Assembly (NCBI RefSeq): GCF_039539965.1
Contig: NZ_BAABED010000001.1
Location: 682,001-746,000 of the forward strand
Source: Arthrobacter methylotrophus
GTDB lineage: Bacteria > Actinomycetota > Actinomycetes > Actinomycetales > Micrococcaceae
DNA length: 64,000 nt
Direction of reading: 5' to 3'
Under the pieces are notes generated by a model. The model saw only the letters and a program-made list of their open reading frames with translations, did not search any database and had not been told where the DNA came from. This document shows positions 28,031-31,086 of the stretch, piece by piece. A program made the position numbers and the translations under genes. Numbering within the stretch: position 1 is the stretch's first letter; each line of letters begins with the position of its first letter.

Positions 28031-28040
28031 CCATCCTCCC

Positions 28041-28190
28041 GGACGCTCGCTCACTTATGCGGCGTTTTTGACGGACGCTCACTCACTTATATGTGAGTGA
28101 GCGTCCGTCGTTTAAGCGCTCCCGTTGCAGCGGCACGTCGAGCCGACGCTCGCTCATTTTTGGTGGGTTTTCGACGGACGCTCGCTCACT
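28041..28190. repeat. Cluster of 32-bp-period GGACGCTCGCTCAC repeats with a 40-bp palindrome
   Basis: Heads GGACGCTC[G/A]CTCAC start at 28041, 28073, 28144 (CGACGCTCGCTCAT) and 28176, as two direct pairs with exactly 32 bp between heads; the 3' end of the unit, GTTTT[T/C]GAC, is also shared. The 28073 copy is mirrored by an inverted copy: GACGGACGCTCACTCAC (28070-28086), TTATAT, GTGAGTGAGCGTCCGTC (28093-28109), a perfect 17-bp stem. Related pairs lie at 29232-29290 and 31030-31086. Confidence 0.85.
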
Positions 28191-29148
28191 ACACCGCGTC
28201 TGCGAAGCCGGATGCGACGGCGGGATCCACCCACGCTGATCGCAGTGCCTTCTTGATCTTCTTGGTTGCCAGATCGAAACCATCTGCTAAATCGTCTTTT
28301 AGGAACACAAGAACAGTCCATCCAGCTGATTCGAACGCTTTGTCCCGGCGTCGATCGCTCAGTGACTGGGCATCCGCAAGGTGATGGCCGCCGTCGTACT
28401 GGATGGCGAGGCGCCGTTGGCGGAATCCCAGATCCGCCGACGGCGAGAGCGGGTCGCTGTCCCGCAACCTGAGTTGAAGTTCCGGTTCGGGGATTCCCGC
28501 GTCCAGCATTGCCAGGCGAAGCAGGGACTCTGGCGCGGAGTCCGCCCCAACCCGCATCAGATCCAGCGCCTCGCGGGCGCGCACGACGCCTTGCAAATTC
28601 GGATGCCGCCCCACCAAGGCGCGTAGGCCTCCAAGGGTCGCGAACGGAGTGTCCCGCCCTTCGAAGGCCTGCCGCGGAACGCGGATCAGCTCGTCGCCCA
28701 TACAGACGAGGTAGTTCAAAGGAAGCAGCTTAGCCATGTCCAACCACGTGCGCGATCGGGTGCTGATCCGTATTCCATCAACGGTTTCGACCTCGTCCTC
28801 GGCCGCGATCACGGTATGCCCGACCACGCCTTTACGGCGGACTCCGGGCAATGATCGCGGCTTGCTGAGGTGCAGCTCGCTCGAGTCTGACAGCCAGGGC
28901 GGAAGACACGAGCAGCGAAGGCGTGCTGCTGTCACATGGGAAATCCAGGCGCCCGGCGTCGCCGCAGACAAGGCACGCGCCGCTGACTCGAGATCGAAGT
29001 CCCAGCCTGCCGGACGGTAGAGCCCACGGCTGACGCGTTCGACGTCGGCGCGAAGCAAGAGTGCACGCGGGACCCCTTGTGCTTGGGCTTGCTCGAGTGT
29101 GAACGGTCCTGATAGCAAGTCAGCAGGAAGGTCGAACTGTTTTTGCAT
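28189..29148 (-). CDS. AbiEi-like N-terminal / DUF559 (Vsr-like endonuclease fold) protein
   Basis: 319-residue protein of a family found in many copies in actinobacteria. The N-terminal ~60 residues resemble AbiEi-type winged-helix antitoxin heads (LTLEQAQ-like start, RVSRGLYRPAG). The C-terminal ~110 residues are a DUF559/very-short-patch-repair-like domain: APESLLRLAMLDAG with a candidate catalytic Glu, SADLGFRQRRLAIQYDGGHH, and RRRDKAFESAGWTVLVF. The PD-(D/E)XK residues look present, so nuclease activity is possible but untested. No partner toxin gene is adjacent. The TAG stop lies inside a dispersed repeat and a consensus DnaA box is 40 bp upstream of the ATG. Confidence 0.7.
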   Translation of the reverse strand: MQKQFDLPADLLSGPFTLEQAQAQGVPRALLLRADVERVSRGLYRPAGWDFDLESAARALSAATPGAWISHVTAARLRCSCLPPWLSDSSELHLSKPRSLPGVRRKGVVGHTVIAAEDEVETVDGIRISTRSRTWLDMAKLLPLNYLVCMGDELIRVPRQAFEGRDTPFATLGGLRALVGRHPNLQGVVRAREALDLMRVGADSAPESLLRLAMLDAGIPEPELQLRLRDSDPLSPSADLGFRQRRLAIQYDGGHHLADAQSLSDRRRDKAFESAGWTVLVFLKDDLADGFDLATKKIKKALRSAWVDPAVASGFADAV

Positions 29149-29187
29149 ACCCGCATTGTTACCCGAATCGGCTGGTGCCTGCAGGAG

Positions 29188-29196
29188 TTATCCACA
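29188..29196 (+). other. Consensus DnaA box
   Basis: TTATCCACA, a 9/9 match to the DnaA box consensus, lies 40 bp upstream of the minus-strand DUF559 gene. It is isolated and no dnaA/dnaN genes are in the window, so it is not an origin; titration or regulation is conceivable. Confidence 0.5.
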
Positions 29197-29231
29197 GGCC
29201 AGGTGCTGCTCGCTCGACAAGGCGCTCTGAT

Positions 29232-29290
29232 GGGCCATACGTGAGCGAGCGTTCCTAGGATGGGGGCGATACGTGAGCGAGGGTCAGAAG
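29232..29290 (-). repeat. 32-bp-period repeat pair after fhs
   Basis: On the minus strand the sequence reads GACCCTCGCTCACGTATCG then, 32 bp on, GAACGCTCGCTCACGTATGG. The fhs stop TGA overlaps the first head. An inverted half copy GCTCGCTC at 29208-29215 can pair with GAGCGAGC at 29243-29250. Same family as at 28041 and 31030. Confidence 0.8.
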
Positions 29291-30978
29291 AGGCCCACCG
29301 GATTGCCGTGCTCATCGACATCCATGCGCATCGCGGCCGGCTCCTTGGGCAACCCTGGCATGGTCATGACGGCACCTGTCAACGCGACGATGAATCCCGC
29401 ACCGGTTTTGGGAATGAGCTCGCGCACATGCACCGTGAAGCCCTTGGGGGCTCCCAGCTGGGAGGCATCGTCGGTGAATGAATATTGCGTCTTGGCCATG
29501 CAAACAGGCATCCCGCCCCAGCCGTTTTTCCGGATGTCCGCGAGGCGCCTGAGGGCGGGGACCGAGAACTCGACGCCGTCGGCACCATAAATTTCCTGCA
29601 CAATCGTGCGGATCTTGTCTTCGACAGAGAGGCTTAGGGGATACAAGTGCCGGAAGTCCGACGGCGTCGCTGCCGCCACCACGGCTGCGACCTTCGCCGC
29701 GAGCTCGTCGCCGCCGTCGCCCCCTCCGCCCCGGCCCCAGACGTCGGCGACCGCGGCCTGTACTCCCTCCTGGGCGCACCAGGCAAGGAGCCATTCGAGC
29801 TCCTCCGGCGTGTCAGTGGCGAACTTGTTGATCGCAACGACCGGAGTGACACCGAATTTCTCAATATTGTGCACATGCCGCCTCAGGTTCTCGACGCCAG
29901 CGGCGAGAGCCTCCACGTTTGGGTCCTTGAGGAGCTCCTTCGGGACGCCGCCCTGCATCTTGAGCGCCCTGATAGTTGCCACCACTACGACGGCGGAGGG
30001 CGCCACATCAGCGATGCGCGATTTGATGTCCATGTACTTTTCGGCACCAAGATCAGCGCCGAACCCGGCTTCCGTGACCACAATGTCTGCAAGCTGCTGG
30101 GCCGTTCGGGTGGCGATAAGCGAGTTGCAGCCGTGCGCGATGTTGGCGAAGGGGCCGCCGTGCACCAAGGCGGGGGTTCCTGCGATTGTCTGCACGAGGT
30201 TCGGTTTGATGGCGTCCTTCAGCAGCATGGTCAGGGCACCTTGAACCCCGAGATCGGCCACAGTGACCGGCACTCGCTCGTAGCTGTATCCGAAAGTGAT
30301 GCGGCCAAGGCGCTCGCGGAGGTCGTCCAAGTCCGCGGCAAGGCAGAAGACAGCCATGATCTCGGATGCCACGGTGATATCGAAACCGTCCTGCCGCGGA
30401 ACGCCTTGAGCAGGGCCGCCCAAGCCGATGATGACCTCCCGTAAGGACCGGTCGTTCATATCAAGAACCCGTTTGAACGTCATGCGGCGGGGATCAATGT
30501 TGAGTTCGTTGCCTTGGAAGATGTGATTGTCCACGAGGGCCATCAGGGCATTGTTGGCTGAGGTGATCGCGTGGAAGTCGCCTGTGAAATGAAGATTGAT
30601 CTCGTCCATGGGGAGAACCTGGGAATACCCGCCGCCCGTGGCGCCTCCCTTCATGCCCAGGATGGGTCCAAGGGACGGTTCGCGCAGCGCGATCATCACC
30701 CGGTGACCTGCCCGGGCCAAAGAATCCGCGAGGCCTACCGTGGTGGTGGACTTTCCCTCACCCGCCGGTGTCGGGGACATGGCCGAGACGAGGACTATCT
30801 TGCCGACGCGCTCGGCGTCCGTGAAGCGGAGCTTGGCAGGATCGATTTTCGCCTTGTACCGACCGTATAGTTCCAGGGCATCGGCGTTGATCCCGGCACG
30901 CTCGGCGATCTCCTCGATAGGACGTATGGCGGCACTATGGGCAATTTCAAGGTCGCTCAAGATCTTGTTTTCAGGCAT
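29284..30978 (-). CDS. fhs: Formate-tetrahydrofolate ligase
   Basis: ATP-dependent activation of formate to 10-formyl-THF for purines and fMet-tRNA. 564 residues, full length: SDLEIAHSA at the start, the P-loop [35 protein letters not shown] (in two parts), and the C-terminal [22 protein letters not shown] chose the ATG at 30978 (MPENKILSD) preceded by GAGGACAAGG; the frame extends 13 codons further upstream with non-homologous residues. The stop codon lies in the repeat pair at 29232-29290. Confidence 0.95.
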
Positions 30979-31029
30979 CCTTGTCCTCAACTCCGTGCGT
31001 AACACTGTGCGCGACAATCTATCAGCCGT

Positions 31030-31086
31030 GGGCGTATTGGTGAGTGAGGGTCGTCGGGAGGGGGCGTATTGGTGAGCGAGGGTTTA
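31030..31086 (-). repeat. 32-bp-period repeat pair after mshA
   Basis: On the minus strand: ACCCTCGCTCACCAATACG, then 32 bp later GACCCTCACTCACCAATACG. The plus-strand units begin GGGCGTATTGGTGAG at 31030 and 31062. The mshA stop TAA directly abuts the first head. The pair fills nearly the whole gap before fhs. Confidence 0.8.

Follow-up and report, generated by a model that had tools for sequence, protein, structure and literature searches.

We find that the paired repeats at gene ends in Arthrobacter methylotrophus are parts of palindromic mosaics in which two inverted copies of a short head, often forming a hairpin, are flanked by inward-facing 32-bp ladders. The likeness of the family to REP repeats is well supported. 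Our preferred reading, to which we give a probability of about 45%, is a REP/BIME-like family of its own design that combines an apex hairpin with a helically phased ladder and possibly serves as a dock for a protein or topoisomerase at gene ends. The window is a stretch of 64,000 nt (assembly GCF_039539965.1, NZ_BAABED010000001.1 positions 682,001-746,000, forward strand). An original prediction, made from its letters, had taken direct pairs of heads as the element; the pairs are real, but each is a piece of a larger palindromic mosaic whose apex covaries.

Repeat elements in the window

The repeats lie downstream of ino1 (inositol-3-phosphate synthase, NCBIfam TIGR03450; 26831-28030, plus strand, start uncertain) and around three minus-strand genes: a DUF559/weak AbiEi_4 gene (28189-29148), fhs (formate-tetrahydrofolate ligase, 29284-31017) and mshA (D-inositol-3-phosphate glycosyltransferase, NCBIfam TIGR03449; 31084-32328). 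The ino1 3' element begins 10 bp after the ino1 stop with the head GGACGCTCGCTCAC (28041-28054, plus strand), and head 2 follows at exactly 32 bp (28073-28086, plus strand). Head 2 is the left arm of an apex hairpin whose right arm is an inverted head absent from the original prediction (28093-28106, minus strand); the hairpin, GACGGACGCTCACTCAC-TTATAT-GTGAGTGAGCGTCCGTC (28070-28109), has 17 perfect pairs. Between ino1 and the DUF559 gene lies a GCTCAT variant that departs from the 14-base pattern at two positions (28144-28157, plus strand), and the head 32 bp beyond it (28176-28189, plus strand) overlaps the stop of the DUF559 gene, to which it is antisense. In the fhs 3' array, head 1 (29273-29286) includes the fhs stop TGA and head 2 occupies 29241-29254; in the mshA 3' array, head 1 (31072-31085) sits at the mshA stop TAA and head 2 at 31040-31053, all four on the minus strand. 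All four direct pairs at 32-bp spacing that had been predicted are present, and their described placement after ino1, over the fhs TGA and at the mshA TAA is correct. Their plus-strand coordinates (28041/28073 and 28144/28176) were also right, and the minus-strand ones (29232/29264 and 31030/31062) were off by 9-10 bp.

Counting heads with at most one mismatch, the window holds 8 versus 0.22 expected, and 0 of 100 shuffles reached 8. At gathering score, none of the Rfam 15 RNA families matched the window. A plasmid or phage origin was rejected, positions 28031-28200 having no match in a plasmid or phage collection. The DUF559 gene, a neighbour of the repeats that lies outside the element, was rejected as a partner enzyme: exact heads occur within about 1.5 kb of one of the 6 DUF559 matches that a domain search found genome-wide, namely the window's own, and several relatives carry the gene in synteny.

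Abundance and the 32-bp period

The 12-mer head ACSCTCRCTCAC occurs 57 + 51 = 108 times genome-wide, compared to 1 + 1 for the reversed pattern, bearing out the proposal that the repeats form a dispersed family. Heads occupy about 44 places in 5 Mb, and most gene ends lack an element. Nor is the spacing random: when 31-33 bp were permitted, 29 of 29 pairs genome-wide lay at 32, and a control search at 33-35 bp found no pair in the genome. Similarly, in the stretches fetched from this genome, same-strand neighbours 20-45 bp apart were at exactly 32 in 32 of 32 cases, and the head read backwards had no such neighbours. At loci of other species the figure was 44 of 46, with the other two at 33. 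The 32-bp spacing is tight, not absolute: with 31-33 bp permitted, complete pair lists gave 63 of 71 pairs at 32 in the relative G020 and 28 of 33 in the relative G066, and the 13 of 104 that differed were off by a single base (31 or 33 bp). Within a species, 32-bp units are gained and lost from arrays, which in our preferred reading would grow and shrink through duplication or deletion of whole units. Because such gain and loss helps to maintain the period, spacing alone is no proof of selection. The original prediction had inferred selection on head and helical phase; both do carry signs of constraint, but unit turnover also keeps the period.

A base-paired apex and a phased ladder

The two arms of the apex covary. 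At head position 3, 47 of 58 apex pairs agree versus 32 when shuffled, and at position 7, 38 of 58 versus 18, values reached in 0 of 2000 shuffles; these shuffles ignore relatedness, and the covariation could stem from local templated repair. The outer arms lack covariation (position 3, 24/33 versus 25 shuffled; position 7, 20/33 versus 16.7), so the outer heads look constrained as sequence and not as stems. A stem of at least 11 bp is present in 34 of the 58 apex pairs and missing from 24. The list behind the covariation counts gives the non-pairing L054 the default stem length of 12. Single units had no fold of their own: 34 units from this genome had a median z of 0.13 on one strand and 0.14 on the other, no better than shuffles. 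We rejected a single long hairpin, nested throughout and with its interiors paired, since excess complementarity is restricted to bases adjoining the heads and the outer heads do not covary. A base-paired part, the apex, and a part constrained in sequence and phase, the ladder, are separate within one element.

Between places, the core of the interior has an identity of 0.364 versus 0.269 from composition. Interiors alternate, with A/T at positions 14-16 and 23-26 and G/C at 19-22, and positions 23-26 accept T or A (17 T-rich, 8 A-rich, 3 mixed and 7 other among 35 in this genome), a pattern that is a DNA-shape type of constraint. In our preferred reading, the apex, made of two inverted 12-bp heads, would act as a hairpin or cruciform, and the ladder, the same head repeated at 32 bp or about three helical turns, would act as double-stranded DNA. 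The ladder would set identical sites on one helix face on which a sequence-specific DNA-binding protein or topoisomerase may dock and act where transcription ends.

The head differs between species. In this genome position 7 is G in 98 of 117 heads, at orthologous loci of other species it is mostly T, and G020 has GTGAGAGAG at both ends of 71 of 71 listed pairs. The same head thus appears to drift as a species 'dialect' at orthologous positions.

Placement at gene ends and along the chromosome

Cluster edges favor stop codons. With stop and start distances taken from a simple codon-score gene finder, in which the DUF559 gene came out shortened, 53 cluster edges in this genome face stops and 17 face starts, as the predicted enrichment at gene ends requires; at loci L076-L093 the numbers are 24 and 2. 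The stop-facing edges of this genome, which have a predicted stop codon no more than 150 bp away, are a median of 18 bp from it, 33 of 53 within 25 bp, and the median at L076-L093 is 6.5 bp. The head nearest the stop is in sense (CTC) orientation at 43 of the 53 edges and at 19 of the 24. This agrees with the sense orientation that had been described after stops, but the rule is largely a by-product of geometry: because palindromes present CTC outwards, CTC heads also point towards gene starts (15 of 17 start-facing edges in this genome, 0 of 2 at L076-L093). The 52 clusters comprise 21 in convergent, 21 in tandem and 7 in divergent gaps, 2 in predicted genes and 1 at an edge, against a background of 64 convergent, 251 tandem and 63 divergent gaps. 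In tandem gaps, 39 heads are sense and 41 antisense, ruling out a sense-only 3'-UTR signal for such gaps.

A serious rival, if a doubtful one, is that these are transcription-termination or mRNA 3'-end elements, in which the apex hairpin would stop RNA polymerase or shield the 3' end of the RNA, in both directions where genes converge, and the ladder may be a Rho-loading (rut-like) region. Like intrinsic (Rho-independent) terminators, the elements adjoin stop codons and present a hairpin soon after the stop, and the apex hairpin in the window is strong (RNA fold of 28031-28125, -49 kcal/mol, z -7.9). Of the 34 apex hairpins of at least 11 bp, a T-rich tail on one or both sides occurs in 16, compared to 8 A-rich, 7 C-rich and 13 G-rich, which leans towards termination. 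Relatives of IS-B, an insertion sequence described below, enter the loops of terminator-like stems and these palindromes alike. However, a T-rich tail is uncommon when all 58 apex pairs are counted (10 top, 7 bottom), the excess over A-rich tails is small, and 24 of the 58 have no 11-bp stem. The CTC-sense interior is C-rich in other species (0.323 C, 0.252 G, recomputed on 42 in-register units, 15 of 57 being out of register) but not in this genome (0.259 C, 0.263 G). RNA would need neither the tight 32-bp spacing nor tracts indifferent to T or A. The ladder of several units and the single repeated sequence set the elements apart from intrinsic terminators, as may the T-tails, present in a minority of apex pairs.

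Copies centre on dnaA in 3 of 3 chromosomes tested and thin out around the terminus, with cluster positions entered by hand (100 of 108 heads of this genome plus added pairs), sequence lengths rounded for G020 and G066, and G066 picked once its partial list had been seen to contain a gap. Long hairpins generally showed no such bias, at 8.5 versus 7.2 per 100 kb in 19 of 20 hand-picked stretches. Those 19 stretches contain 2 heads with at most one mismatch on the origin side, 1 of them exact, and 5 on the terminus side, 0 of them exact, but they were chosen after head positions were known and are therefore uninformative on element density. The origin bias could reflect the location of conserved genes. 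A bolder version of our preferred reading, which we consider quite unlikely, is that the ladders are sites of a putative DNA-binding protein that co-evolves with the dialect, reads the three-turn spacing and marks out the half of the chromosome nearer the origin. The ladders would then be a chromosome-domain or supercoil-management code of these Micrococcaceae, set at gene ends where promoters are spared. Owing to the split between apex and ladder, the dialect drift and the thinning at the terminus, one could test directly, in easily grown soil bacteria, for a protein partner and for a role in chromosome topology.

Known DNA uptake words are short, species-specific, often found as inverted pairs after genes, and present in a thousand or more copies. 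By analogy, the heads might be species-specific words read by a DNA uptake receptor, consistent with 12-mer dialects and inverted pairs at gene ends. We regard this as very improbable: about 100 copies are far from such numbers, and uptake would explain neither the ladder at 32 bp nor the bias towards the origin.

Relation to known repeats

REP-like repeats were first recognized decades ago, and BIME-2 elements are characterized by binding of gyrase, IHF or Pol I. In the available parts of the published accounts, the GTAG and CGTC super-families of REP/BIME are intergenic palindromic repeats with about 100 or more copies and inverted pairs. They lie near the 3' ends of ORFs, in gaps of the convergent and unidirectional kinds, and are targeted by insertion sequences, the IS3 family included (PMC3733652, PMC2817692). 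Our family shares their multi-copy, extragenic, inverted palindromes, with 108 exact heads and just 2 of the 52 clusters in predicted genes. However, 32-bp head-to-tail ladders dominate here, whereas direct dimers are described as negligible in the CGTC families in the portions available of PMC3733652. Each known unit folds into a hairpin that leaves a GTAG or CGTC tag unpaired; here units are unfolded and apex pairs alone form a stem. Further differences are the phased interior, the outer heads without covariation and the origin-centred distribution. REPINs, as far as the accessible text of PMC3116915 and PMC2817692 goes, are likewise short, arranged as inverted pairs and particular to a species in sequence, but they come with RAYT transposases, and a search of this genome for that Y1_Tnp domain (PF01797) gave 0 matches, with 5 of 14 control genomes positive.

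Our literature search, in sources partly available as excerpts, yielded no description of the 32-bp ladder family. The main text of PMC3733652, by word search, mentions neither Arthrobacter nor Actinobacteria; PMC12306157, in the sections available, gives REP counts for Arthrobacter livingstonensis and still terms the biological roles of REP-like repeats unclear. The earlier statement that no element of this form is described is fair for the ladder, but palindromes at gene ends that attract insertion sequences are known from REP/BIME, to judge from the available parts of PMC3733652 and PMC1525189. Set against these published descriptions, the ladder family looks like a novel relative of the REP repeats with unusual regularity.

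Distribution, mobility and insertion sequences

Within the Micrococcaceae, the motif pair was found in the GTDB genus of this genome and one other. This confinement to two genera of the family, together with intergenic, multi-copy, palindromic copies and species-wide heads, would suit non-autonomous repeats of the MITE or REPIN kind, selfish or neutral, that are tolerated at gene ends without a host function, the dialects reflecting recent master copies. We consider this unlikely. No Y1 transposase was found in this genome, the element position at fhs/ino1 is common to different species, and the copies mapped from G079 (30 of its 67 heads) all lie, except L191, at places that bear elements in this genome. 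The same mapping, made from G079 onto this genome, revealed no empty sites with a target duplication.

The repeats are themselves targets of two IS3-family insertion sequences. IS-A cuts the head, with 4 of 5 copies inside one. IS-B adjoins a head or variant head in 5 of 5 copies, no more than about 5 nt from CTCAC or a variant and usually at the palindrome centre; its boundaries with 4-7 mismatches are unreliable (L249, L253, L255, L259, L260), and L246 and L251 gave no boundary. Similarly, the IS3-family elements IS1397, ISKpn1 and IS621 insert specifically into enterobacterial REP/BIME palindromes, according to the available part of PMC1525189, but the insertion points of IS-A and IS-B set our family apart. 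One IS110-like element also lies near a head.

A 32-bp ladder of heads in Arthrobacter

The window (682001-746000 of its contig) contains mshA, fhs, a DUF559 gene and ino1. The original prediction placed four direct pairs of a short CTC-type motif (the head) here at 32-bp spacing; all four pairs are present at that spacing, but the coordinates of two sets were off by 9-10 bp. The window holds 8 heads with at most one mismatch compared to 0.22 expected, and across the 5.08-Mb Arthrobacter methylotrophus genome the 12-mer ACSCTCRCTCAC has 108 copies compared to 2 for a reversed control. A pair search allowing 31-33 bp found 29 pairs in this genome, 29 of them at 32 bp, and a search at 33-35 bp found none. 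In two relatives, G020 and G066, 63 of 71 and 28 of 33 pairs were at 32 bp, the remainder lying at 31 or 33 bp in a search that permitted 31-33 bp only.

A looser pair pattern (17-47 bp spacing) matched 151 of 198 genomes in the GTDB genus, where the number of pairs per genome ran from 1-2 in some to tens or hundreds in many; the reversed pattern gave 0 or 1 match per strand and genome. At the widest scope searched, the family, 24 of 295 genomes matched: 16 of 24 in the same genus and 7 of 22 in a second genus, g24. Of the other 249, one genome gave a single 33-bp match, apparently fortuitous. Heads with at most one mismatch are present in 10 of the 20 named MshA neighbourhoods taken from near relatives (L075-L094), at the ends of fhs and/or ino1. 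At head position 7, T predominates in these neighbourhoods (A or G at L075), and G is found in 98 of 117 A. methylotrophus heads. Different hairpins occupy the fhs/ino1 ends in L079, L081 and L084. Hairpins of a third type, whose arms resemble GGTCACTTACGGCCCA, occur at L199:16426 and also after fhs in L081 and L084, at loci that showed no CTC head. A second palindromic family, with arms of the ACTCGCATTTGTTGTCGTT type and stems of 18-31 bp, has 4 copies in 380 kb of A. methylotrophus (L209, L210, L212, L214). Several relatives have the DUF559/AbiEi_4 gene (window 28189-29148) between fhs and ino1; others lack it at this place.

Signs of base pairing at the apex but not in the ladder

Clusters laid out for 38 fetched stretches and the window revealed that most head pairs are parts of palindromic mosaics: at least one CTC-oriented head, an apex of two inverted heads, and then GTGAG-oriented heads, usually in 32-bp register. 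In the innermost unit the head is often a variant, for example ACGCTCCTGCA or ACCCTCCTTCA. Apex heads are most often 5 nt apart (22 of 58 pairs), and a stem of at least 11 bp with at most one mismatch is present in 34 of 58 apex pairs from A. methylotrophus and relatives (26 of 44 in A. methylotrophus), the others being broken or short. The ino1 element of the window has 17 perfect base pairs; in the fhs array and in the mshA array all heads point the same way. The longest array among the A. methylotrophus stretches laid out has nine units at 32 bp with head variant CGCCCGCTCAC (L055:5044-5311).

Apex arms agreed at positions 3 (47 of 58, 32 when shuffled), 7 (38, 18 shuffled) and 8 (40, 28 shuffled), levels reached by 0 of 2000 shuffles in a statistic that ignores relatedness; agreement was weaker at positions 9 and 12 (reached by 16 and 6 of 2000). 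In the 44 A. methylotrophus pairs alone, 36 agreed at position 3 (23 shuffled) and 29 at position 7 (17; reached by 1 of 2000). Outer head pairs (n = 33) had no excess like that of the apex, interior complementarity was confined to bases adjoining the heads, and single units folded no better than shuffles. We therefore read the apex as a base-paired structure and the ladder as an array kept for its sequence, although local templated repair could also produce the agreement between arms. A. methylotrophus interiors, the sequences between heads, alternate between A/T (positions 14-16 and 23-26) and G/C (19-22); other species show tract 23-26 and the G/C block again, with a shorter first tract. 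Tract 23-26 accepts either T or A. Together with the three-turn spacing, this points to double-stranded DNA.

Our preferred reading, to which we give somewhat less than even odds (about 0.45), is that the family is a putative array of docking sites on the DNA, its apex being structural. The main rival, a role in transcription termination or at mRNA ends, is a serious one, though we give it lower odds. In its favour, 16 of 34 real apex hairpins have T-rich tails compared to 8 of 34 with A-rich ones; against it, T-rich tails are few when all apex pairs are counted, and A. methylotrophus interiors are not C-rich. Interiors of other species have 0.323 C compared to 0.252 G.

Whole units are gained and lost

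Interior cores from different places share 0.364 identity, compared to 0.269 from composition, and this divergence suggests constraint on unit length. Spacing is, however, also kept in another way. In 18 alignments between A. methylotrophus and a strain of the same species, Arthrobacter sp. MA-N2 (NZ_KI912155.1), we found two exact 32-bp indels and a third split into 24 + 8, at two elements, indicating that gain and loss of whole units helps to keep the period. Further indels were 12, 13, 15, 15 and 20 bp.

Clusters favour gene ends and, in three genomes, the origin-proximal half

Of the 52 reliable clusters, 21 are in convergent, 21 in tandem and 7 in divergent gaps; 2 more fall within predicted genes and 1 is at an edge. 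The gaps available at these loci number 64, 251 and 63, respectively. Within 150 bp, 53 cluster edges face a stop codon and 17 a start. The proposed placement at gene ends held, with sense heads towards the stop at 43 of the 53 edges (median 18 bp). In L076-L093 this was so in 19 of 24 (median 6.5 bp); each of the 5 exceptions follows the DUF559 gene.

Clusters are centred on dnaA in 3 of 3 genomes tested, with 33/39, 12/17 and 16/22 in the origin-proximal half (Rayleigh p = 4e-5, 0.047 and 0.042; V-test towards dnaA p = 2e-5, 0.009 and 0.0095), G066 having been picked after a gap was noticed in its partial list and only the first places in G020 having been seen beforehand. Conserved genes biased to the origin could be reflected here. 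Long hairpins in hand-picked stretches lacked an origin-like bias (8.5 compared to 7.2 per 100 kb).

Insertion sequences target the elements

In the portions compared, the REP literature reports that gyrase, IHF and Pol I bind REP/BIME elements and that the elements assist Rho-dependent termination (PMC2817692); it names IS1397, ISKpn1 and IS621 as insertion sequences drawn to them (PMC1525189) and describes most REP families as scattered across the whole genome (PMC3733652). The Arthrobacter family shares their placement, palindromy and targeting by insertion sequences, but its units are not hairpins; a 32-bp direct ladder, a dialect and an origin bias were not met in those portions. A genome search found no Y1 transposase in A. 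methylotrophus.

MA-N2 carries five near-identical copies of the IS3-like IS-A, of which, by reading, 4 interrupt a head and the fifth is next to a degenerate one; two of these sites are without the corresponding insertion in A. methylotrophus. It also carries five copies of IS-B (1436 bp), with a 3-bp duplication in 4 of 5, all five directly following a head or variant head and 4 with an inverted head across the insertion. IS-B matches the IS3 model above the curated cut-off and IS-A below it.

IS-B relatives are present in 49 of 198 genus genomes. From 30 fetched loci (one of them MA-N2) we obtained boundaries for 28 and both flanks for 27; flank complementarity was at or above the 99th percentile of mismatched controls in 12 of 27. 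By reading, 9 of 28 have a CTC-type or variant head within ~20 bp (L231, L242, L243, L247, L248, L250, L252, L256, L258), another 9 lie in loops of terminator-like stems (L233-L237, L240, L245, L254, L257), and neither was clear in 10. Because relatives occur at both kinds of site, the IS-B transposase apparently does not distinguish these palindromes from terminators, and its relatives' target choice merits separate study. The terminator-like stems (among L231-L260) are ordinary stems 3' of genes in other species. An IS110-like element lies close to a head in L191. In A. methylotrophus, an insert of ~60 bp at an element apex (L064:7885-8029) has both IS-B-like ends when compared by eye, and is possibly a miniature derivative of IS-B.
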